Positions 18,884-62,237 of a stretch of DNA of 64,000 nucleotides are shown piece by piece. Each line of letters begins with the position of its first letter. Positions within the stretch are counted from its first letter, which is position 1. The notes beneath the pieces are model-generated. The model had not been told where the DNA came from, searched no databases, and saw nothing but the letters and a program-made list of their open reading frames with translations. The position numbers were made by a program, and so were the translations under genes. Origin of the DNA: Planctomycetota bacterium (GTDB lineage Bacteria; Planctomycetota; Planctomycetia; Pirellulales; PNKZ01); contig JAFEBQ010000007.1 in the NCBI GenBank assembly GCA_018242585.1, positions 1 to 64,000 on the forward strand, in the 5' to 3' direction.

Positions 18884-19354
18884 CTAGTTATTGAGTCGCA
18901 GGGCGTAGCGACCAGAGACCGAGCCATCGACTGCATCGGCGAGCTTGGCCATTTCGAGACGCCGAAGCTTGTCCCGTAAACGTTTAACGCCAGCTCGAAC
19001 AGCGGAATCGGTACGCACACCATCCCAGACCGCTGCTAGGAGTTCTTCGTAACTCAGGTAGACATTCGGACGACGTGCAAGTCGCTCCAGCAGTCGAAAG
19101 CCGAGCGAATTCCCGAAGAAGCAGGTCCGACCATCGAAGGAGATCGTAAAATGTTCCCGGTCGATCTGGAGTCCGTCGTTGGGGTTTGCAGAATCTGGCT
19201 GCATTGGCCGGGATTTCCAGAAGGTGAACGGGTCGAGCGCCAGCTCTTCACTGATGAGCGCTGACATCTCCTCCATGAGCTTGATCGTGGCGGCATGTGA
19301 TTCAGCCAGAGAACGTAGGGCGTTCCGAATTCGGTCGCGTTTTGCAGGATTCAT
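18884..19354 (-). CDS. Stand-alone OmpR/PhoB-type winged-helix DNA-binding protein
   Basis: A 156-residue protein starting at the ATG at 19354, which has a clear GGAGG ribosome site 6 nt upstream. The first 55 residues are helical and charged. The C-terminal 95 residues form an OmpR/PhoB-type winged helix (LGFRLLERLARRPNVYLSYEELLAAVW ... VRAGVKRLRDKLRR ... GRYALRL). No receiver domain is present, so it is not a normal response regulator. The gene ends 11 bp before three PhoB-box-like repeats that precede the recombinase operon on the same strand, so it probably controls that operon and could be co-transcribed with it. It diverges from the AbiE operon. Confidence 0.75.
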   Translation of the reverse strand: MNPAKRDRIRNALRSLAESHAATIKLMEEMSALISEELALDPFTFWKSRPMQPDSANPNDGLQIDREHFTISFDGRTCFFGNSLGFRLLERLARRPNVYLSYEELLAAVWDGVRTDSAVRAGVKRLRDKLRRLEMAKLADAVDGSVSGRYALRLNN

Positions 19355-19531
19355 AGGAGCCTCCGGAATGAAGAAAGGAGAAAGGTTGCCCCCCAAGTCT
19401 GGAACCGGAGACGAGCAACAATTCTCCGCCGAAGGATGTCGAGAATGATGACGTGAATGGGTCGCTTGGTCGCAAAAGATAAGACGTCGTAGCAAGGGGC
19501 CGAGCCGCGTGAATTGGCCTGTTTTCGGGCT

Positions 19532-19560
19532 TTGTCTGGTCTCAAATTGCGTTGTATACT
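19532..19560 (+). promoter_or_regulatory. Promoter of the AbiE operon
   Basis: TTGTCT (19532-19537), a 17-bp spacer and TATACT (19555-19560) form a good sigma-70-type promoter. Transcription should begin near 19567, inside the palindrome that follows. Sequence elements are seen directly; activity is inferred. Confidence 0.65.
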
Positions 19561-19561
19561 T

Positions 19562-19600
19562 GTTTGCGTAAAGGGACACATTCTATCCCTTTGTGCAAAC
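19562..19600 (+). promoter_or_regulatory. Palindromic operator of the AbiE operon
   Basis: Two 15-nt arms (19562-19576 and 19586-19600) match at 13 of 15 positions in inverted orientation around a 9-bp spacer. They are built from GTTTGC and AAAGGGA blocks. The site overlaps the predicted transcription start just after the -10 box and ends 17 bp before the antitoxin ATG. AbiEi antitoxins are known to bind inverted repeats in their own promoters, so this is the expected autoregulatory operator. Confidence 0.65.
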
Positions 19601-48242: not shown

Positions 48243-49625
48243 CTATTCTTTCTCTAACAACTGGCGCATGGCTTTCATCAGCACCCCTTCGACCTCGGGC
48301 GCGACGCTGCTTGACGTGGGACCGGTTTCGTAGCCCCCTTCGGGATACGCGGCCGCCGTGCCGATATACCCGGGACCGTAATCGCCGTACGCCGCCATCA
48401 TCACGTGCAAGTCAGGGCGCATCGCCTTGGCCGCCAGTTGATACTCGACGAACAACTCACCCGGCAGATGCAACATCCGCGAGTCCCCCACGCGCAGGCA
48501 GGTGACATCGATCTGGTGCCCCGACTTCACACGGCGCAACCAGGCCAATTGATCGGCGTAGGAAATGTATCCCTTGGCGGCCGTGGACCGGAGCTTGGCG
48601 ATCAAGTCGGCCTCGTCCAGCCGCGGCGACAGGGGCAGACTGACCGGAACGCTGCTCCAAGCGACATCCACTGGCATCAGCGGCGTGCGCTTGGTTTGTT
48701 CGTACGCTTCGCGCATGCCGCTGGCCAGGCGCGTGGCCAGGATCATGCGGTTCGGCTGGCTGCCATCGTTGTACTTGCCCGCCGCGATGTTCCCCCCGGC
48801 CCCGGTAAAGTGGACGTGCAGCGCCTGGTTGACATCCTGGCCGCGGATGAATCGCGCGATGCCCGGAAAGTCAGGGCTGGGAATGCCCAAGCGGTAGTAG
48901 CTTTGCGGATGGCACGCATAGGAGCTGAGCAGCGCGATCGGCTTGTCGCCGTTCCAGAAGCTGAGCAGCGACACCGCCGGATCGATCAGCCCCTCGGGCA
49001 GGGCGATCAGTTCCTCGATCTTGCAACTACTGCCGCGCATCCGCCCGACGGTGCCATCGTGGCGGCGCTCGACGCGCCGATTCGAAGCCACATCCTTGAC
49101 GATCGCTTCACCATAGCCGAAGTGCGTCGCGGGCTGAGCCTTGGGGAGCGCGGCGCGAATGGCGTCGGCGGCCCGCTCGATGACTTGGTGTTGAAACGGC
49201 CCGTCGAACCGCGTGTAGCCCGACACGCCCAACTCGGCGATCACCTTTTCGGCGGTGAAGTCGCAGCGCGGGGCATCGTGCTGGTGCAATGAGTGGACGG
49301 CAACGCGGTTGGGGATTGTGCCGGCAGCCTGGGCCAAGGCCTGGCGAAAGGCGTCGTGCCCTTCGTTGGCAATGCCGATCCAATCGACCGCACACAGCAC
49401 AATCGGCTCGCCCGAGCCCAGCAGGACGATGCCGCGACAGCGCAGAGTTAGCTCGTCCAAACGCTTGACCGGATCATACGCCATGGCTGAACCCAACGGC
49501 GGCGTTGCGTCGACGTCGAACGTGGCCACGCTGACCATCGGTTCGGCCGCGCACACAGCGCCCAGCCCAGCGACCATCACGAGCGCCACCAATAGCAACC
49601 AGATGGACGTGCGATGCGTGCTCAT
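48243..49625 (-). CDS. Secreted neutral-ceramidase-like protein
   Basis: A 460-residue protein with a signal peptide (about 1-26, ending CAA). The pattern [31 protein letters not shown] and YACHPQSYY with several histidines resembles the N-terminal zinc-dependent domain of neutral/alkaline ceramidases. It is shorter than true ceramidases (about 650-750 residues) and lacks their C-terminal domain. The real substrate is uncertain. An 11-bp-phased repeat array lies about 240 bp upstream. Confidence 0.6.
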
Positions 49626-50973
49626 GAAATCCTCGGGGGATAATTGGCTGGTGATGTTGTTGGCGCGGCAGCCGCGATGAACCGGCGGGAAGGTTCACCC
49701 TAGCAGATTCGACGCTGGGCAGCCAAATAAACGGCGTCCTGTGCCCTTGCTTGCGGAATGTCGCGATTCCTGGATAGGCGACATGTTGGGCCACGTCAAA
49801 ACATCGCTGATCGCAGTATTTCGCCGAGATTTTCGCGGCCTGGGAACATGGCGACCGAACGTCATTCACCACCGCTTCACCAGACCTTCACCAGCAATTC
49901 ACCAGGGTTTCACCCGGCTTTTTCGGCCCTTTCGACGACATCTGGGTAGCTGCTTGGCAAGGCCACAGCGCGCTTGCCCACCGGGAAAGTCGAGCCTCCT
50001 CGCTCGCGCTGGAAGAGCGCGCTCAGCCACTCGGCATGGCCACTCGATCAACGCGGCACTCATCAGCGCGCAGCGTGCGCTTCACCATGCTCTCACCTCC
50101 GCGCCACTCGGTCGTCGCCAGACTTTGTGTATCGCGCTTTCGCGTTCGCGACGAGACTCAATCTTGTTGACGCGACTGGCATGGTGAAGCCGATGGTGAC
50201 GGCTGCCAAGAGCGACGGCAAAGACTTCTGGCCCGACTTCGTTTTGGAGAGAGCTCTTGATGACACTCGCCCCGCGGGTGTGCGAACCGAACGCTTCTCG
50301 GACGAGCCAGGCCCCAAGTTGACGACGCTCGGCTGCCGCGCCCCATGGCGCTGCCCGGCAAGCCCCTCGCGCGGATAGCGCGTCGGCTGAACCGCAACCG
50401 AGTCAACCCAACAACCGAACACGCACTTGTCGATTGGTCCCGCCGCGCCATGCAGCGCACCGGCCCAGACGACTGGTTCCCCCGATTAGCCACGCTGGCT
50501 GTGACCGCCACGGCGTCGCCGGTGAGCTCTCCCTCACTGGCGACGCGGGCGGTCGATGCTGGCCGCCGAAATGGCAAACCGATTCACAACCTGACCGAAC
50601 ACGTCACCCAACGGTGACGATTTGCTCGCATAACTCAACACATCGAAGACGCTGAGGAACCCACAACCATTCACCACGGGCGAAACGTGCGAACGTCGCC
50701 ATGCTTGCCGAACGAGTTTGCCTCTCTCCAGTCGATCGGAAAGTTGACGTTCGCCGTTTCGCTCTTTTTAGCTCATGTGGAAGGCATGGCGTGCCGCCCG
50801 ACTAGCGGTCGCGCCACGCACAGATCGAGAGAGGACGTATCGAACAATCGGTTGACCGTGGCCCGATGGTGGGGCCCGGTCAAACTGCGCCCCGGCGCAG
50901 TCTGATTGCCAGGCGCTGGTCATGGTGGCCCGCGCTTCGTGTTTCGTGTTCCCTGTTGCGAAGGAGAGAGAGA
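49626..50973. other. Gene-free stretch of about 1.35 kb
   Basis: Several open frames exist on both strands but none has motifs, a signal peptide or a convincing ribosome site. The stretch contains the phased TTCACC array (49865-49914) and, near its right end, a short GC palindrome (CTGCGCCCCGGCGCAG, about 50886-50901). Confidence 0.4.
49865..49914 (-). repeat. Five TTCACC hexamers at exact 11-bp spacing
   Basis: TTCACC occurs at 49865, 49876, 49887, 49898 and 49909, each exactly 11 bp apart. On the minus strand this reads as GGTGAA, mostly within TGGTGAA, pointing towards the ceramidase-like gene. The bases between are not conserved. Eleven-bp phasing puts every copy on the same face of the helix. 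Confidence 0.7.
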
Positions 50974-51420
50974 ATGAACGTATCACTGTCGCGGTTTTGG
51001 CGGGACGAAGGTGGATTCTTGATCTCGGCCGAGGCGATCCTCTACGCCAGCATCTTGGTCATCGGCGTGATCTCGGGCCTCAGCGCCGTGCGCGAAGCCG
51101 TCGTCACCGAATTGGCCGACGTCGGCCAAGCTATCGCCAACCTGAACCAGAGCTTTCAATTTGGCGGCGTTGTCGGCCACTGCGCGGCCACCTCGGGCAC
51201 CGCGTTCTTCGACACGCTTGACTTCTGCGATTCGGCCTTCATGGGCTATCCGATCGTCAATTCGAAGTGCGTCGTGATCTGCTCGGGCACCTGCGGCTTT
51301 GTCGGCTGTGAACCGGCGTATGGATATGGTGTCGCGGGCTTCAACGGCGCCTTCGGCACGGCCGGTGTCGCGACAGGCGCGGTTGGAGTCTCGGGTACGG
51401 CGTTTGGCGCCGGATCCTAA
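50974..51420 (+). CDS. Pilin-like/TadE-type small secreted protein
   Basis: A 148-residue protein with a good ribosome site (AAGGAGAGAGAG). A short basic N-terminus (SRFWRDEGGFLISAEAILYASILVIGVISGLSAV) resembles the leader of Flp/TadE-type pseudopilins: a charged start, Glu in the hydrophobic stretch and a membrane helix. It is shown here in part only as DEGGFLISAEAILYASILV. The rest is Gly/Ala/Cys-rich (CVVICSGTCGFVGC). It is one transcription unit with a strong terminator and could be abundant. Confidence 0.6.
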   Translation: MNVSLSRFWRDEGGFLISAEAILYASILVIGVISGLSAVREAVVTELADVGQAIANLNQSFQFGGVVGHCAATSGTAFFDTLDFCDSAFMGYPIVNSKCVVICSGTCGFVGCEPAYGYGVAGFNGAFGTAGVATGAVGVSGTAFGAGS

Positions 51421-51459
51421 CCTCGTTGACGGAACGACGGGCTGACCTCGCTTACCCCA

Positions 51460-51497
51460 AGCCAGACCCAGGCCAACGCCCGGGCCTGGCTTTTTTT
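51460..51497 (+). terminator. Strong intrinsic terminator after the pilin-like gene
   Basis: AGCCAG...CTGGCT with inner CCC/GGG and GGC/GCC pairs (two mismatches) spans 51460-51491. It is followed by a tract of seven T residues to 51497. It lies 39 bp after the stop codon. Confidence 0.8.
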
Positions 51498-51566
51498 GTT
51501 TGCTCACGATAGCCGCGGTGCGTGGCCAACTTCACCTAGGAATGCAACAGCTCCTTGGAAGTGGTC

Positions 51567-52397
51567 CTATTTACCGTAGTGTGGCCAGGGGGCGAGATTG
51601 ACGTTCGCGGGGCCATTCAGCACGTGGCCCCGCGGATCAAACCGCGAGCCATGGCACGGGCAATCCCAAGTCTGCTCGGCATCGTTCCAGGCAACCACGC
51701 ATTTCAAATGCGGACATGTCGCGGACAACTTGCAAAGTTTGCCATCCTGGTCGCGAAAGATCGCAACCTTATTCAGCCCCTCGCGCAGAATCGCCCCATG
51801 CCCGGGCGCAATCTCGTCGACCGAGTCGACCTCGCCCGGCGTGAGCCACTGGGCGTACTGGCTGGCGACGTTCAGATTCTCGCGCATGAAGGATGGCAAC
51901 GCCCGCACCGGCACTCGGGCCGGGTCATACAGCGAAGTCCAAGGATTGGAGTGTCCCAGGATCAGATCCTTGAGGATCATGCCGGCAATCGTGCCGTGAG
52001 TCATCCCAACGCCTGAATCGCCCGTGGCAATGAACACATTGTCTCGGTCCAGCGGGTTGCGGCCGATGAAGGCCACGCCGTCCATCGACTGCATGACCTG
52101 ACCGGCCCATTGGAAGTCGATCTCCTCGATCGACGGGAATCGCTCCCGCGCCCAATGTTCGAGTCGCGCGAACCGCTCGGCGCCATCCTGGGCCTGGCCT
52201 GATTTGTGATCTTCGCCACCGACAATCAAATACGAATGCAATACCGAGCTGGCATCCTGTTCAAGCCGCACATAGTGATAAGGATCGGCGGTGTCCCAAT
52301 ACAGCGCGTCGGGCACCATCTCGGCGAGAATCCGAGCGCCGATCGCATAGGTGATATACGGCGCTTGCTTGGTATGGATGGCGAACATGTCGTTGAT
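51567..52397 (-). pseudogene. C-terminal half of a FAD oxidoreductase with Rieske domain
   Basis: About 275 codons match the end of a DAO-type FAD-dependent oxidoreductase: FAIHTKQAPYITYAIGAR, FIATGDSGVGMTHGTIAG. A C-terminal Rieske domain follows, with CPHLKC and CPCHGSRF binding a 2Fe-2S cluster. Intact members have about 510 residues, and the N-terminal GxGxxG FAD-binding half is missing. In frame, similarity starts near 52397 and a stop lies five codons upstream. The gene is therefore a remnant even though its 3' part is open. Confidence 0.7.
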
Positions 52398-52869: not shown

Positions 52870-55800
52870 CTAACCCATTTCGACGCGCACTTCGTGCCGA
52901 TTACCATCGTCGATCAGGGGCACATCGCCTTGCGGACATAGCTTGCCGTCCAGCGATACTGTCGCGACGCCCGACTGCTTCCGTGTTGGGTTCGAGACAA
53001 CAACGTGGTAGCTGGCCGTGCCGCGGCGCAAGGTGATTTCAAATTGCGCCCAATCGGCCGGTACACATGGCGCGACGTGCAACGACTGGCCCGAGACCCG
53101 CAAGCCCAACAATTGCTCCACGGCCACACGGTACATCCAGGCGGCCGAGCCGGTGTACCAGGTCCAGCCACCCTGTCCGCGGTGCGGAGGGCAGCTATAG
53201 ACGTCGGCCACGGCGACGTACGGTTCGACTTTGTAGCGCCGGGCCGCCGATTCAGTGTCGCTGTGGTGGGGTGGCGCCAATAAGTTGAACAACTGCATGG
53301 CGCGGTTGCCGTCACCCAGCATGGCCAACGCCTGGACCAGCCAAATTGCCGCATGGGTATATTGCCCGCCATTCTCGCGAATGCCAGGTAAATAGCCTTT
53401 GATGTAGCCCGGCTCGAGCGAGGTATGGTCAAACGGCGGCCAGAACAATAGTGCCAATTTGTCGTCAATCTGCACCAACCTGTCCCAGGCCGCTTGGACG
53501 CCTTGGCGCGCGCGACCGGGATCGCCATTTGCGATGACCGCCCAGGATTGCGCGATGGAATCGACCTGACAGGCGTCGTTTTGCGCGCTTCCCAAGGGCG
53601 TCCCATCGTCAAAGTAGGCTCGGCGATACCACTGCCCGTCCCAGGCCTGGTCTTCAATGGCCTGGCGCAAGCGCGCGGCCTGCTGACGAAACTCGCCGGC
53701 GCGATCCGTCTCGCGCCAGGCTTCGACGATGGGGACGAATTGATCGAGAACATCGAGCAAGAACCACGCCACCCAGACACTTTCTCCCCGCCCTCCTTCG
53801 CCAACCTTGTTCATCCCATCGTTCCAGTCGCCGCCCCCCATCAAGGGCAAACCGTGCTGGCCGAAACGGAGCGCGCGATCAATCGCCCGCAGGCAGTGAC
53901 CGTAAAACGACTCGCTTTGCGCCGACTGCTCGGGCAATTCGTACCGTTCGTGCTCGTTGGGTTCGAGCGGCAGCGAATGAAGGTACGGCACGACTTCATG
54001 GAGCAAGCTCGTATCGCCGGTCGTGCGCAAGTAGTGGGCCGCCACGAACGGCAGCCACAAGTAATCGTCCGAGAAGCGTGTCCTGACACCGTGGCCCCGC
54101 GGCAGGTGCCACCAATGCTGCACGTCTCCTTCCTCGAATTGCCGACCGGCCGCGCGCAGCAGATGCTCTCGCGTCAACTCGGGACGGCTGTAGACGAGCG
54201 CCATTGAATCTTGCAATTGATCGCGGAAACCATAGGCGCCACCGGCCTGGTAAAACGCCGACCGCCCCCAGAAGCGGCAGCTCAGCGTTTGATAGAGCAG
54301 CCAACGATTGACGAGCAGATCGAGCGCGGGATTGGGCGTCTGGACTTGAATCGCCGACAGGGTGTCGTCCCAATTCTGGCGTGTGCGAGCGGCGACTTGC
54401 GCCACGTGCTGTCGATCATTGAAGCGGGCGAGCAGCGCCTCGGTGTCGGCTGGACTAGAGGCCTGGCCGAGCAGGAAGACCACTTCGCTCTCTTCGCCGG
54501 GCTCCAAATCCAGCCGGGTTTGCACCGCGCCGAACGGGTCGAGCCCCGCGCCCACGCGCCCCGACAGCGTCACGCGTTCGAGCGCGGCGGGCCGCCCCCA
54601 CTGGCCATTGCGGCCGAAGAACTCGGTGCGATCACCCGTCACCGTGCAGACGCGATCCACCACGTGCAAGAACGCCACGCGCTCGGCAAAGCCCGGATGG
54701 TAATGATTCGTGGCCAACAGCGCGCCCGTCCGGCGATCGATGGCCGTGACGACGTGCAACATCATCTGCTCGCGATCCACTCCCAGGATCCATTCGGCAC
54801 AGCACGTGGCCGACAGCTTGCGGCGCCGCGGCGACTCGTTTCGCAGCGTCAGCCGCAGAATCTTAACCGGCTCCTCGGCGGCGATTGTCATCAGCAGCGA
54901 CTGGGCGACACCATGCGACACATGTTCAAACACCGAGTAGCCCTGACCGTGCCGGATGGTGTAAGGTTCCGTGTCGCGGATCGGCAACGGGGTGGGTGAC
55001 CAGAGTTCGCCGGTTTCATCGTCGCGCAGATAGATCGCCTCGGTACACGGATCGCTAACCGGGTCGTTCGACCAGCCGGTGAGCTTGTTCTCGCGGCTGT
55101 TTTCCGACCAGGTAAACCCGCCGCCCGCTTCGGTAACCACGCAGCCGAACGTGGCATTGGCGATAACATTGCTCCACGGGGCCGGCGTCGACTTGCCATT
55201 CGTGAGTTGAATGACGTATTCATGCTTCGGCCGGTCAAAGCCACCGTAGCCGTTGTCGAACAACAAGGAGGGTTGTTGTGCCGAGCGCGGCGCTGGCAAT
55301 CCTTCCCGTGGCGTCGCGGGGCGCTTGGGCGACACCGCCAAGAGCGCCGGCGGACGCTTTCGCTGGGGCGTCAACTCGAGCTGTCGTTCGAGCGAGCCCG
55401 CGTCGCCATGCAGCACGACATGAGCCGCGGTCAGCAACAGCGTCTTGTCTGCTTCGGGGATTCGTGAACCTTGCAGAACGAATATCCCGCCACGCTTGTT
55501 GAGCAGCCCCCAAGCGCCAGACTCGCCCACGAGACGTGTCAGTTGCTCATGGACCGCGTCCATGTAGCTCGTGGGGTGCTCGTTGAGCAGGACCATCTCG
55601 GCAATAAAGTTCTTGGACCGCCAATATTCGTGTGCCAACAACACCTCGCGCACCAGGCCGTCTTGGTTCGCCTGGGAGATTCTCACCAGCACGATGGGAA
55701 AATCCCCTGAAACTCCATACCGCCACAGGCCGGCCTGCCCTTGCGTGTTGGCGGCCAGGATGACTGGCGGCGCACGTTTGATCGCGTCGGGATAAAGCAA

Positions 55801-58800
55801 CAACGATGCCAGCCGCTGAAACAGATGCACATTGCCCGCCGTCAGATGGACGTGCCGCAGCGCCACTTGCGCGTGGGCCCAGGCCAGTTCGAAAGCCCGC
55901 GACACCATGCGGTATTCCCGATACTGATCAGCCAACACCAACGCTTCTTCGCGGCTTTGCGCGTAGGCCGTTGTGAACGCCAGCCGCACGGTTTCTCCCG
56001 GCGCAATTCGCACGGGGCAGCGCAGGCTGAAGATCGGATCCAATACCGGGCCGGTCGTACCCGAGAGCGGCGTCCCAGGCTGGCAGGCAGCCGGGGCAGC
56101 CACCGTGCCGCCGCGTCCCAGAAATCGTGCTCGATCGGTTTCGACCTGGATGTCGCCGGCCACTGCGGGATGTTGGCTTTCATCAATGGCCAACACGTGG
56201 ATCGCCCAGGCGGCAGCCTCGTGTGCCGAACGTGGTCGACGTCTTGCCAAAATCGTTCTTTGGCCGGCAAGGTACTCGGTCTCGATGAATAACTTTTGAA
56301 AGGCGGGGTGGGCCACATCGGCGGCGGCGGAGCCCAGCACGATCTCGGCATAGCTGGTCACGTCGAGTGTCCGCGGGCGATCGTCATGGTTGGCGATGGC
56401 CAGCGAGCGCAGCTCGGCATTGTTCTCGGGTGACACCGCCACTTCCAGGTGTGTCTCCAACTCATTGTCCAGGCGGCGAAACTCGGCCTTGTCCAAGGAG
56501 AAGAGAACTTCGTACTTCTCGGCGGTCACGCACGTGGGCTGATACCCAGCCGACCAGAGCGTGCCGCGACGGCGGTCCCGGAGATAAATGAATTGTCCCC
56601 AGGCATCACGTGTCGAGTCGGATCGCCACCGGGTCAGGCGCGTGTCCTCGCAAGCGCTGTAACCGCCCCCCGCGTTGGTAATCATGACGGTGTACTTGCC
56701 GTTGGAGAGCAACTGGGTGCGGGGGCCGCTGGTGTGTGGCGTGGTGATCCAGCGGCTGGTCGAGCGATCGGGTTCACGCACCCAGGGAACTTCGACTAAC
56801 TCGTCGCCGTGCGGCGTCACGATCGGCGCCGCGACGGAAGCCCCTTCCTGCAACAGCCGGTCGGCTGCCAGGGTCCGAGGCTCGCGGTGAAAACGTCGCT
56901 GCATTCGGTTTTCGAGCAAGCAATTGGCGGCCGCCACCAGCAGCATCCCCTGGTGATGGGCAAAGTAGCACTGCACGATCGATTTGCTTTCATCCCCTGA
57001 CTGGCGATTGGCGGTGTAGTCGATCGCGTCGTAGTACCCCCACGGACCAAGCGCCCCTTCCTCGGCCAGGGCTCGTAGATTCGCCAATGCCTCGCGCGGC
57101 TTCACCATCAGCGCCAGACCGGTCGCATAGGGTGCGACCACCAGGTCGTCGGCCAGTCCTCGTTTCAGCCCCAGGCCGGGCACGCCGAACGAGCGATACT
57201 GATAGTTGTTAGCGCTGTCGAACGCCGCGAATGCCGACTCGGAGACGCCCCACGGCACATTCCGTTGCTGGCCAAACTCGATCTGTCTGTCGACCGCCGC
57301 CCGGCAGCTTTCACTCAACAGGGTCTCTGGGTATTCGCGGAGGAACAGGTTCGGCATCAAATACTCGAACATCGTTCCGCCCCACGATAGGAGCGCGTTG
57401 GACCCCGCTACATTGGTGACCGGGCGGCCCAGGTGGAACCAGTGACGCACGTCAACGTCCCCTTTGCCCACGGCCAGAAAGCTGGCCAGGCGCGCTTCGG
57501 ACTCGAGCAAGTCGTAATGGCTCCGGTCCAATTGCCCAGTGGCCAGATTGTAGCCAATCGAGAACAGATGGCGCGGCTGATCGAACAGGAACGTGAAGTC
57601 CATGCTCAGCGCCAGTTCTTGATAGCGCTCGGCCAGTTCTCGGTAACGGGCAAGCACGCGATGCGCCGAGGTCGAGGCTGCCTCGATCTGCGTTTCCAGC
57701 TCGTCGATCCATTGCTCGGCCGCACGCCGCGCGACTGATCCGCTATAGATCGTCGAAGCGGTGGACCGCAACGCGGCCATCGCGTCGGCGCATTCCTCGG
57801 GCAAATGATCGATCCCAATGAGCGTGAATGCGCGATCCAGCCTCGATTGCATGGCCCGTTGCTCGACGAGCCAGGTGGGAGCCGGGATGTTGATGGGGCA
57901 ACGGCCCAAGGTTTCAACCCAAGGGAAAAAAGTACTGAATTCTTGACGCATCCGCGCCGACTGCCGCTCGAGCGCGGCCAGGCATGCCTCCCACAGGGAC
58001 GGTATCGAAGAACCGATCCCAGCGGCCGGAGGTCTCGCCGCCGTGAGTTGTTTGAGCAACGCCGCCACACCCCCTTCCAGTTCTTGCCAAGCCGCCAACC
58101 AGCCAGTTGGGGTATCTGGCGCTTTCTGCTCCACGGAACTGACCCGACGAAGAAGTCGCTCGGCATCACGCGCCAACGTCGGCCGACGATCGGCCAACCC
58201 GGCATCATGCATGGCCGCGATGGTCAAGGCCAGCGTGTCGGCCAGTCCGGCAAACGCGCGCGATCCCAGGAATGATTCACGATTCAGCGCCAACAACCCT
58301 TGACGCACCGCAAGCGCGCAAGCGGCCAGGTTGCCGCTGTCGACGGTCGACACATAGGCCGGCGTCAGCGGGGCCAGCGTTTGCGTGTCGTGCCAGTTGT
58401 AGGGATGCCCGCGGTGATGTTCGAGTTTCTGCCAGCTATCCAGGTTGCGTTCCAGCAGTTCCGCAAGTTCTTCATAACCGAGGTAGCCGAAGTCATGTGC
58501 GGTCATTGTCGACGCCAGCCACATCCCTTCATTGGTGGGTGAGGTGCGATGGGCAACCACCGGCTTGGGATGCTCCTGATAATTGTCGGGAGGCAGCCAG
58601 TTATCATCGGCGGTGACGAATTGCTCGAAGAACAACCAGGTGTGCCGGGCGATCCTTCGCAACTCCTTTCGTTCGGCGTCGTTCAATTCTGGCGGGGCAA
58701 GCTGCGGAGGCTGGCTGACGTAATACGCCAACCACGGCGAGACTAGCCACAGTGCCAGAATCGGCGCTGCCATCCACAACACGGAAATTGGCGCGGTCAC

Positions 58801-61686
58801 GGCTAGAGCGGCACAGGTCACCAGCGCCAACACCGACGCCGGCCACATCTCGCCGAGAAACTGCTTCCAGCCGCTCACCAGCCGGCGCTCGGTAACATAA
58901 GCGGATTCCCAATCCAGCAAATGGGTTCGACTGAAGTAGACGCGCCGCAAGCTCCGTATCAGCGCGTCGAGCATCACCTGGGCCTGATGCGCCAAGAACG
59001 CCAGGGCGAGTAGCGCCTGGGCCGCTGAAAGCCGCAACTCGCCCATGCCATTGATCAGAAACCGCCCCAGCGAACTGCCACGAGGCCGGTGCGCCAACAG
59101 CGACAGCGCCTGAATCAAGAGCGGCAGCGCAACCACCGCCATTGCCAACATGGTGAACAGACCGGCTAACGCGGGCGTCACGAACCAGCCGGCTAGCAAC
59201 ATCAGCACGACCGCCGGCGGCACCAGGCTGCGGCGCAGGTTATCCAGGATCTTCCAACGCGAAATCAATGACAACGGATTGACCGCGGCGCCTTGTGCCG
59301 AAGGGACGCGATGAAACAACCAGGGAAGAATCTGCCAGTCGCCACGCACCCAACGGTGCAGACGTCGCGTGTAGCCCAGGTAGTGCGCCGGATAGTCATC
59401 GATCAACTCCATGTCGGTCACCAGCCCCGCGCGAACATGACAGCCTTCGATCAGGTCGTGGCTCAGAATCTGATTGTCCGGAAACGCCTGCCGAGTGGCG
59501 GCCTCGAAGGCATCGAGATCGTAAATGCCTTTGCCGATAAAGCTCCCCTCGCCAAAGGCGTCTTGATAGACGTCGGAGATGGCGGTTACATACGGGTCGA
59601 CGTGCGGGTTGCCTGAGTAAATGCGCGCGAAGCGTGATCGCCGCGCGCTCCGCGGCGCGATGCTGATCCGAGGTTGCAAGATGGTGTAGCCACGAACGAC
59701 CCGCGCCCGCGAGGAGTCGAACCGCGCCTGATTGAGCGGGTGAGCAAGCGTCCTGACCAGATTCCGCGCGGCACCCAAGGGAAGTTGCGTATCGGCATCA
59801 AGTGTAATCACGTAGCGAACGCGCCTTAATTCCTCGGGCAAACCGGGAACGTCCACGTAGCTGGTATCGGTCGCGCCGCGCAACAACCGATTGAACTCGG
59901 CAAGCTTGCCACGTTTTCGCTCCCAGCCCATCCAGGTGTTCTGCGACGGGTTCCAGCGCCGTTGGCGATGAAAAAGCCAGAATCGTTGCTGGCGACTCTC
60001 GGCATGGCGATTGTTCAATTCTTCAATCGCCGCTGCCGCCACGGCCAGCAAGGAATCATCCTCGGGCATCGACTGTTCAGGGGCGTCCTTCAGGTCAATG
60101 AGCAGGGCAAAACTCAGGTGGGGATCGGGATTCGCCAGGTAATGAATCTCAAGCCGTTCGATCAAGGCTCGCGCGCTTTCCTTGCTGACCACCAATGCCG
60201 GGATTACCACCACGGCGCCGCACCTTGCTGGGATCCCCTGTTGGAAGTCGAACTTGGGCAACACACGGGGGCGCAGGCACAAGGTCAACACATAGTTGAT
60301 GATGCCGACCGCCAACTCGGTAAGCGGAACCGCGCTGATTACAAAAGTCAGGACCAACGCGCCGACTGAATTGACGACTAGGCGGGCAACGCCAAGCAGC
60401 GCCGCCATGCCTAGCCCCCAGGTCGCCACCAGCGTCAAGACATAGAGTCCTTGCGCGTGTGCCGCTAACGCCCGCTTCACGCGCAGCGCGATCGACGGGC
60501 GCAAACCAAGGTTTGCCTCTAGTTGGCCACGCCCTTCATCCACCAGGTAATAGCCAACATGGCCGCCAAGTGGGTCGCCATCGAGGCGGCGCGATTCATT
60601 CACCGCCCGCCGCGCCACTTCAAGCTCCGACACCTTTGACCGTCGCGCTAGCAACTCGACGACGTGGCGATACCGGTCCCGAGTGGCGAAGTCCATGCGG
60701 GCGTAAACATCACTGGGATCTTGCCGCAGTTCGCGCTCCACCAGGCTGGTCTCCTCGAAGAAGACCTCCCAGTCCATGGCCGACATCAGCCGCATCGTCG
60801 TAATCGCGTTTCCAATCGAGACCTGATCGCACGCTTGCCGTTGGTGTTCCAGGCGGACGGTTTCCTCGATAGACGCTCCTTCGTCAACCAGGCGCTGTTC
60901 GAGCCAATGCCAACAAGTCGACAGGTCGTGTCCCTGATCGCGGAAGCGTTGCACCAATTGCGCCACCAACGGCGCCGCCAGGCGCTTGCTCTGCCTGGTT
61001 TGTTTGGAAAGGTATTGCGGTGGATCGGTCGGACGTTCCTCGACGATGGCATCGGCCCAGGCATTGGCGCAATGTCGATGCTGGTGAGTCTCGCGCAGAC
61101 GGTCGGCCAGCCGCCGCAGATTCTCGACCAGGGCCAAACGCAGCATGATGGGAATGGCCCACATCTCCCCGATTGTCAGCGGCATGATCTCCTGATAGGC
61201 CTGGATGAAGCGCGTCAGCATCGCGGCATCGATGGCGCTGTCGGTGTGGGCGGCAAGCTCGCGCGCCAGGGAATAGACCCGCGGCGCCCCGGCCATTGGC
61301 CCGGCCGAGAGTTTGGGCAGCTCGTTATAGAACCGGCGGGGAAGATCTTCGCGAATCTCGCGCAGTTGCTCACGAACGATGTAAAAGTTGTCGAGCAGCC
61401 ACTCGGAACCAGGGGTAATCTCCTGTCCCGAGCGGGCAGCGGCCACGATGGTGTTGTAAACCGATTCGAGAATCGCGCTGTTCGATTCAAATTCGCGCCA
61501 CATGCGGCGCTGATCGCGATGCGTGGCCGTGGTGCCATGAGCCGCGGCCAGCGCGCGCGCGTGCTCTTCCAGATGCTCGATGCTGAACGGAGCGTCGCGA
61601 AGCGAACCGGCCGAGTTCAACGGCGCTGATCCCCCGGCAGGGACAAGTTGTTCCTGGGCTGGCTCAGGCTCGATGTTCGCACTCAT
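52870..61686 (-). CDS. ndvB: Cyclic beta-1,2-glucan synthase
   Basis: About 2938 residues from the ATG at 61686 (GGGAG upstream), similar in length to rhizobial NdvB/ChvB (about 2830). Order: soluble N-terminal region (1-400); two membrane segments (about 409-470); GT84 glycosyltransferase domain with VITLDADTQLP near 625; further membrane segments (about 815-990); a glycoamylase-like domain (WLASTMTAHDFGYLGY near 1055 and VPWGVSESAFAAFD near 1475); two beta-sandwich regions; and a C-terminal GH94 phosphorylase domain with the catalytic Asp in GGGDWNDGMN near 2616. The enzyme polymerises UDP-glucose into beta-1,2-glucan, adjusts chain length by phosphorolysis and closes the ring. It acts at the cytoplasmic membrane. 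No NdvA-type exporter is seen nearby. Confidence 0.92.
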   Translation of the reverse strand: MSANIEPEPAQEQLVPAGGSAPLNSAGSLRDAPFSIEHLEEHARALAAAHGTTATHRDQRRMWREFESNSAILESVYNTIVAAARSGQEITPGSEWLLDNFYIVREQLREIREDLPRRFYNELPKLSAGPMAGAPRVYSLARELAAHTDSAIDAAMLTRFIQAYQEIMPLTIGEMWAIPIMLRLALVENLRRLADRLRETHQHRHCANAWADAIVEERPTDPPQYLSKQTRQSKRLAAPLVAQLVQRFRDQGHDLSTCWHWLEQRLVDEGASIEETVRLEHQRQACDQVSIGNAITTMRLMSAMDWEVFFEETSLVERELRQDPSDVYARMDFATRDRYRHVVELLARRSKVSELEVARRAVNESRRLDGDPLGGHVGYYLVDEGRGQLEANLGLRPSIALRVKRALAAHAQGLYVLTLVATWGLGMAALLGVARLVVNSVGALVLTFVISAVPLTELAVGIINYVLTLCLRPRVLPKFDFQQGIPARCGAVVVIPALVVSKESARALIERLEIHYLANPDPHLSFALLIDLKDAPEQSMPEDDSLLAVAAAAIEELNNRHAESRQQRFWLFHRQRRWNPSQNTWMGWERKRGKLAEFNRLLRGATDTSYVDVPGLPEELRRVRYVITLDADTQLPLGAARNLVRTLAHPLNQARFDSSRARVVRGYTILQPRISIAPRSARRSRFARIYSGNPHVDPYVTAISDVYQDAFGEGSFIGKGIYDLDAFEAATRQAFPDNQILSHDLIEGCHVRAGLVTDMELIDDYPAHYLGYTRRLHRWVRGDWQILPWLFHRVPSAQGAAVNPLSLISRWKILDNLRRSLVPPAVVLMLLAGWFVTPALAGLFTMLAMAVVALPLLIQALSLLAHRPRGSSLGRFLINGMGELRLSAAQALLALAFLAHQAQVMLDALIRSLRRVYFSRTHLLDWESAYVTERRLVSGWKQFLGEMWPASVLALVTCAALAVTAPISVLWMAAPILALWLVSPWLAYYVSQPPQLAPPELNDAERKELRRIARHTWLFFEQFVTADDNWLPPDNYQEHPKPVVAHRTSPTNEGMWLASTMTAHDFGYLGYEELAELLERNLDSWQKLEHHRGHPYNWHDTQTLAPLTPAYVSTVDSGNLAACALAVRQGLLALNRESFLGSRAFAGLADTLALTIAAMHDAGLADRRPTLARDAERLLRRVSSVEQKAPDTPTGWLAAWQELEGGVAALLKQLTAARPPAAGIGSSIPSLWEACLAALERQSARMRQEFSTFFPWVETLGRCPINIPAPTWLVEQRAMQSRLDRAFTLIGIDHLPEECADAMAALRSTASTIYSGSVARRAAEQWIDELETQIEAASTSAHRVLARYRELAERYQELALSMDFTFLFDQPRHLFSIGYNLATGQLDRSHYDLLESEARLASFLAVGKGDVDVRHWFHLGRPVTNVAGSNALLSWGGTMFEYLMPNLFLREYPETLLSESCRAAVDRQIEFGQQRNVPWGVSESAFAAFDSANNYQYRSFGVPGLGLKRGLADDLVVAPYATGLALMVKPREALANLRALAEEGALGPWGYYDAIDYTANRQSGDESKSIVQCYFAHHQGMLLVAAANCLLENRMQRRFHREPRTLAADRLLQEGASVAAPIVTPHGDELVEVPWVREPDRSTSRWITTPHTSGPRTQLLSNGKYTVMITNAGGGYSACEDTRLTRWRSDSTRDAWGQFIYLRDRRRGTLWSAGYQPTCVTAEKYEVLFSLDKAEFRRLDNELETHLEVAVSPENNAELRSLAIANHDDRPRTLDVTSYAEIVLGSAAADVAHPAFQKLFIETEYLAGQRTILARRRPRSAHEAAAWAIHVLAIDESQHPAVAGDIQVETDRARFLGRGGTVAAPAACQPGTPLSGTTGPVLDPIFSLRCPVRIAPGETVRLAFTTAYAQSREEALVLADQYREYRMVSRAFELAWAHAQVALRHVHLTAGNVHLFQRLASLLLYPDAIKRAPPVILAANTQGQAGLWRYGVSGDFPIVLVRISQANQDGLVREVLLAHEYWRSKNFIAEMVLLNEHPTSYMDAVHEQLTRLVGESGAWGLLNKRGGIFVLQGSRIPEADKTLLLTAAHVVLHGDAGSLERQLELTPQRKRPPALLAVSPKRPATPREGLPAPRSAQQPSLLFDNGYGGFDRPKHEYVIQLTNGKSTPAPWSNVIANATFGCVVTEAGGGFTWSENSRENKLTGWSNDPVSDPCTEAIYLRDDETGELWSPTPLPIRDTEPYTIRHGQGYSVFEHVSHGVAQSLLMTIAAEEPVKILRLTLRNESPRRRKLSATCCAEWILGVDREQMMLHVVTAIDRRTGALLATNHYHPGFAERVAFLHVVDRVCTVTGDRTEFFGRNGQWGRPAALERVTLSGRVGAGLDPFGAVQTRLDLEPGEESEVVFLLGQASSPADTEALLARFNDRQHVAQVAARTRQNWDDTLSAIQVQTPNPALDLLVNRWLLYQTLSCRFWGRSAFYQAGGAYGFRDQLQDSMALVYSRPELTREHLLRAAGRQFEEGDVQHWWHLPRGHGVRTRFSDDYLWLPFVAAHYLRTTGDTSLLHEVVPYLHSLPLEPNEHERYELPEQSAQSESFYGHCLRAIDRALRFGQHGLPLMGGGDWNDGMNKVGEGGRGESVWVAWFLLDVLDQFVPIVEAWRETDRAGEFRQQAARLRQAIEDQAWDGQWYRRAYFDDGTPLGSAQNDACQVDSIAQSWAVIANGDPGRARQGVQAAWDRLVQIDDKLALLFWPPFDHTSLEPGYIKGYLPGIRENGGQYTHAAIWLVQALAMLGDGNRAMQLFNLLAPPHHSDTESAARRYKVEPYVAVADVYSCPPHRGQGGWTWYTGSAAWMYRVAVEQLLGLRVSGQSLHVAPCVPADWAQFEITLRRGTASYHVVVSNPTRKQSGVATVSLDGKLCPQGDVPLIDDGNRHEVRVEMG

Positions 61687-62237
61687 GTCTGGGCTCCCAT
61701 GTCGCGTCGTCGCCGGACGAGATTCAACTTGCGACGATCGCACTCAAGTGCCGCCCGACAAAATGTCGCGTGCCGTCCCGCGGCGTCGAAATGAAGAATT
61801 CGCGATCGCTCACGATTGCCAACACTGGCCAGCAACGACATTGCACGTCGTATGCCAACAACTCGGCTCCGCCAGGCTCCAGACCATTACCCTTGAAAAT
61901 GCCTCGCAAAAGCGCGGCGCGCTGTTTTCCTTGATGCCTCTCGTTGATGTATCGAGGTCGCGACTCGACCGGCACAATCGATTGGTCGCCTGGCGGGCAG
62001 CTTGGCCGCAACGAGGTCACAGGCGGCATTTTTCTCCAAGAGAAGGCGAGCCCCTCGGCTCCATACGACCTCGATCGAAAAGCGCGACCGAGCGATGCGC
62101 ACCGCTTTTACACGAGTCAAGAATCGCCGTGGTGATTGGGCGCGCCGTATGCAGCATAGGTTCCAGGCATGCTCTTTCGAGACGCCTCATGGCCCCTGAG
62201 AACTTGGGCCTCACCGTTCCACATGGAGAAACCCATC
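61687..62237. other. Gene-free stretch of about 550 bp
   Basis: It separates two divergent genes and should contain both their promoters, but no clear -35/-10 pair was found. Open frames on both strands (for example 61724-62029 minus) have no recognised motif. Confidence 0.35.

Follow-up and report, generated by a model that had tools for sequence, protein, structure and literature searches.

The window, a stretch of 64,000 nucleotides from a genome of 5.57 Mb (hereafter the source genome), contains a tandem array of five exact TTCACC units repeated at an 11-bp step (array A'; 49865..49914, + strand). Arrays of the same phase recur at promoters in the family of the source genome and in other families of the order Pirellulales. 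We consider it likely that the array, with its tandem direct repeats, serves as the operator of an activator that binds cooperatively, and the most likely binder is a protein that we call A6.

Phase and occurrence of the window array

The units of array A' start at 49865, 49876, 49887, 49898 and 49909, and the sequence, a match to the array profile and an identical layout in relatives define them with the consensus TTCACCAGnnC. The exact 11-bp phase of the five hexamers, described in the earlier note, was confirmed: four TTCACC-N5-TTCACC pairs were observed in the window, all of them within array A', while 0.01 was expected from dinucleotide shuffles. The array was also called as a repeat by TRF. 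A search of the whole source genome detected no exact TTCACC triple outside array A', and the reversed control pattern gave zero exact triples in the same genome. The sequence-only array profile R1, of which two rows come from the window, matched array A' in the source genome with an E value of 4e-6. The spacers had been described as unconserved, and this holds only in part, as three of the five start with AG and the consensus TTCACCAGnnC is common to the relatives. From the sequence comparison, a degenerate sixth unit (TTTTCGG; 49920..49926, + strand) follows in phase and resembles CTTCGGTA, which lies 3' of the corresponding array in the relatives. No consensus sigma-70 promoter was found by a scan near the window array.

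When 396 genomes of the order were searched, exact triples were detected in the source genome and in G042, a member of the same family, and in no other genome, perfect 11-mer tandem repeats aside. These perfect repeats, as in G079, G263 and G389, were judged to be unrelated to the array. Once degenerate copies were counted, the scan of the source and related genomes that had been proposed earlier did not leave the window array as an isolated case.

Arrays A and B at a degenerate papain-like gene

Within the family, array A is located 5' of a degenerate papain-like gene in all six genomes that have this gene, including contig C32 of the source genome, and a second array, B, is located between the papain-like gene and an LRR gene in the same six genomes. 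In G042, the exact-triple array is located just 5' of the papain-like gene, and the next gene encodes an LRR protein whose N-terminus is pilin-like. The remaining family genomes with the papain-like gene, C32 of the source genome included, have a three-unit array A with small deviations. The best R1 match in each of the six genomes is the array A site, the window array of the source genome excepted, and no R1 match was obtained in G051, a family member without the papain-like gene. The best lag was 11 in six of six family loci for array A and in five of six for array B. In the A promoters of the family, a -10-like element was assigned by eye; the start of the last clear unit is ~40 bp, and that of the last degenerate unit ~29 bp, 5' of this element.

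The C32 papain-like gene borders WecG-type and other glycosyltransferases, with T2SSF (tad-like) and pilin-like genes on the other side. Its upstream neighbours differ from those in the relatives, and the array still stays with the papain-like gene. The search for closer relatives of the source genome gave four family members and distant relatives, and none closer. The array phase is kept at the orthologous promoters although the surrounding DNA of the relatives has diverged, which fits well with the cooperative protein on one face of the helix suggested in the earlier note.

The papain-like gene is present in 45 of the 396 genomes at E up to 0.001, and 37 of these matches are at about 1e-16 or better. 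The protein can be aligned with a C1 cysteine protease of solved structure (3ois; E 2e-23). The positions of the catalytic Cys and His, assigned by reading this alignment, are not conserved, and therefore the protein is probably not an active protease. This C1 papain-like protein, with other residues apparently in place of the catalytic Cys and His, is kept beside polysaccharide genes in many Pirellulales (locus L072 10061-10924 and homologues).

Outside the family, array B was detected at lag 11 in 10 of the 14 nearest loci, five of which come from one genus, while array A was weak there, with a best lag of 11 in three of the 14. Neither array stood out in the ten most distant loci. The other-family B sites consist of three units, then CCGTTG and, ~17 bp later, TACAAT or TTAAAT, which plausibly represent a -35/-10 pair. 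The fixed position of these arrays just 5' of a -35/-10-like pair is that expected generically of an activator operator. A profile of seven of these sites found essentially one site per genome, and the sites in G045 and G067, outside the training set, were the top genome-wide matches at the expected place. The genes 3' of the other-family B arrays are exopolysaccharide genes, i.e., those for a Wzz/GNVR chain-length protein, a BcsQ-like protein and a bacterial sugar transferase.

From these arrangements, we propose that activator subunits would bind head-to-tail on successive 11-bp units along one face of the helix, and that the array-bound activator would touch RNA polymerase on the promoter immediately 3' of the array. 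Precedents for this mechanism are PhoP, which forms trimers and tetramers on 11-bp repeats (PMC4832192), and the SARPs with their boxes (PMC10936776). The two-promoter element (A + B) would control the degenerate papain-like gene and the following genes in Pirellulales, which would be an LRR/pilin-like gene in the family of the source genome and exopolysaccharide genes in others.

The extra promoter pair in the window

A second array, B', is present in the window 3' of array A'. Its units TTCACC (50081), CTCACC (50092), GCCACT (50103) and GTCGCC (50114) are in exact 11-bp phase (50081..50119, + strand), with an R1 match at 50078-50097. A B-type promoter region (TTTGTGTATCGCGC...GTTCGCGA; 50090..50151, + strand) resembles promoter B of C32, with 74% identity over 62 bp by blastn (E 6e-4). 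The same region is the best match in the source genome, after C32 itself, to profile R2 (E 0.0075 genome-wide), an array B profile built without the window sequence. Array B' is followed by TTTGTGTATCGCG, as at C32. Array B' (50081-50151) is weaker than array A'. Between A' and B', the codon-position G+C gave no sign that any part of the papain-like gene remains. Since A- and B-type arrays are both present with no gene remnant between them, the window holds an extra A'+B' promoter pair from which the intervening gene is absent. This extra pair is found in the source genome only, and elsewhere the arrays A and B are confined to a single locus in each genome.

The region was described earlier as gene-free over 1.3 kb, and our analysis agrees: no convincing gene was found in 49626-50973, the codon-position G+C is flat over ~49650-50850, and no ORF within the region has a Pfam match. 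The search of 49600-51560 for a decayed mobile element or an RNA family gave nothing convincing, with one chance miRNA match far below the threshold. The first credible gene 3' of the array is a pilin-like gene (50974..51420, + strand) with an N-terminal DEGGF..SAE membrane segment and no Pfam match, which starts ~1 kb beyond array A' with no coding signal between. Its family has 10 copies in the source genome, and no arrays were found 5' of the other paralogues in the loci scanned. The DEGGF family as a whole lacks a Pfam match and reaches up to ten copies per genome in the source genome and its relatives; its members are sometimes LRR-repeat fusions, and at C32 of the source genome they adjoin the T2SSF genes.

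An intrinsic-terminator-like stem followed by a T run (51468..51489, + strand) is the sole one found in 49600-51600. Because it is located 3' of the pilin-like gene, a single transcript from A'/B' through this gene, with a leader of 0.8-1.0 kb, is possible. The ceramidase-like gene (48243..49625, - strand; PF04734 weak, E 0.054) is divergent from the array. The distance of ~240 bp between the array and the start of this gene at 49625, given in the earlier note, is correct. A link to this gene as a target is not supported, since the array faces the + strand gene at 50974, and its orientation and the comparison with the relatives point to a target on the + strand. Therefore, the ceramidase-like gene is probably not the target. 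The array region is flanked by an alginate lyase gene (PF05426; 46700-47827, + strand) and a gene for a 2957-aa GH94 cyclic-glucan-synthase-like protein (52870-61743, - strand). Elsewhere in the window, a stand-alone winged-helix protein that lacks a receiver domain is encoded at 18887-19582 (- strand); its match to the OmpR-type domain PF00486 is weak (E 1.8e-8).

The window copy may serve as a promoter for the pilin-like gene at 50974, with a long leader in between, or it may drive an RNA without annotation. It may also be a decoy or a relic. The units of array A' are better kept than those at C32 of the source genome, which is a mild argument against a relic.

Candidate binder and comparison with known systems

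A6 is a protein of ~250-255 aa without annotation, and in other families its gene is usually the one adjoining array A. Each of the six family genomes with arrays has exactly one full-length copy, and G051, which has no arrays, has none. In this family the A6 gene does not adjoin an array; in the source genome, 9 kb separate the A6 gene (C32:119944-120618) from the C32 arrays. Over the order, A6 was detected in 33 of the 37 genomes with the papain-like gene (matches of ~1e-16 or better), being adjacent (<1.5 kb) in 20, as against 18 of the 359 others, where it occurs without the papain-like gene; common descent inflates these counts of co-occurrence. No convincing match to A6 was found in Pfam, NCBIfam or PDB, a profile comparison (hhalign) did not relate its C-terminal domain to those of the OmpR type, and no viral contigs encoding the A6 domain were found. 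The C-terminal region reads like a winged helix, which suggests a DNA-binding fold. As A6 has no convincing PDB, Pfam or OmpR-type match, its putative DNA-binding role rests on this reading and on the gene association, and A6 is the best candidate for the array binder.

A more specific picture can be offered tentatively. A6 might represent an undescribed planctomycete activator family that switches on surface-polysaccharide and pilin-like genes via phased 11-bp arrays. The window would then be a promoter-only orphan with the strongest array of the genome, either titrating the activator or driving an RNA without annotation.

The same operator logic could hold with another OmpR-family response regulator (e.g., C20:26669) in place of A6, although we regard this as rather unlikely. 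Members of the OmpR family are textbook binders of 10-11-bp direct repeats. The source genome has four clear OmpR-family regulators, and the C20-type orthologue group has members from every family genome. However, this group is also represented in G051, with neither arrays nor the papain-like gene, and no OmpR-family regulator adjoining the arrays was found. A functionless array, produced by neutral tandem-repeat expansion in non-coding DNA, is improbable. No coding signal is seen in the DNA around the window copy, and the genes served elsewhere are absent. The copy could be a relic of an old promoter copy or have arisen from one by repeat expansion. On the other hand, the hexamers are identical while the spacers differ, unlike slippage repeats such as the perfect 11-mers mentioned above, the orthologous array position is conserved, and the window units are the better kept ones.

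Even less probable is that the arrays are PHO boxes, i.e., sites for a PhoB-type response regulator. The PHO box of S. coelicolor is an 11-bp direct repeat with the core GTTCACC (PMC4415409), the same core and step as in the array. Moreover, the source genome has a complete phoB-phoR-pstSCAB-phoU operon, and directly 3' of phoU lie two pilin-like genes that belong to the family of the gene at 50974 (L070 937-12556, contig C27). Nevertheless, no TTCACC array is present 5' of phoB, pstS or pstC of the source genome, no R1 match was obtained at the pst locus, and PhoB orthologues were not found in the array-bearing G061 (a genome 75% complete). PhoB is an unlikely binder because the pst/phoB promoters of the source genome lack the motif. 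Finally, the nucleoid or chromosome-structure site also suggested in the earlier note, for which the helical phasing over 50 bp and the gene-poor region speak, does not fit and is very improbable, since each genome has only one or two loci with arrays, always promoter-proximal and tied to the same specific genes.

An operator for an activator, most likely A6, thus remains our preferred reading. The defined DNA motif, together with its promoters, the target genes and A6 as a named regulator candidate, makes the control of planctomycete surface genes directly testable. Should A6 prove to bind the array, it would represent a family of regulators that Pfam lacks. The literature searched yielded no pair of operator and regulator for the surface-polysaccharide genes of Planctomycetes.

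Several known systems resemble the array. The PHO boxes of PhoB/PhoP, which are OmpR-family proteins, share the head-to-tail repeats, the 11-bp step, the promoter linkage and, in Streptomyces, a core near GTTCACC, and they may likewise extend beyond two units. They differ in that the array is absent from the pst/phoB promoters of the source genome, its putative targets are genes for polysaccharides and pilin-like proteins, and the binder is probably another protein. The sites of Mycobacterium tuberculosis PhoP (TCACAGC) share the format of a 7-bp motif and a 4-bp spacer, and three- and four-motif arrays of these 11-bp repeats are bound tighter than two (PMC4832192), but the core sequence and the genes are different. 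The SARP boxes of Streptomyces (afs box, heptameric repeats) share direct repeats at 11 bp and the proximity of these repeats to a poor -35, and SARP activators are, similarly to the array system, pathway-local and usually encoded in the cluster. SARP repeats are spaced by 11 or 22 bp with 8 bp between the 3' repeat and the -10 element (PMC10936776), whereas the array units are located 5' of the -35. The SARP binder consists of OmpR-type DNA-binding and BTA domains; in A6, no sequence similarity to SARP or OmpR was detected. The phylum and the genes also differ. Compared with these systems, the array is a regulatory element that is real and conserved and belongs to a general kind already known, and its candidate regulator seems to be undescribed.
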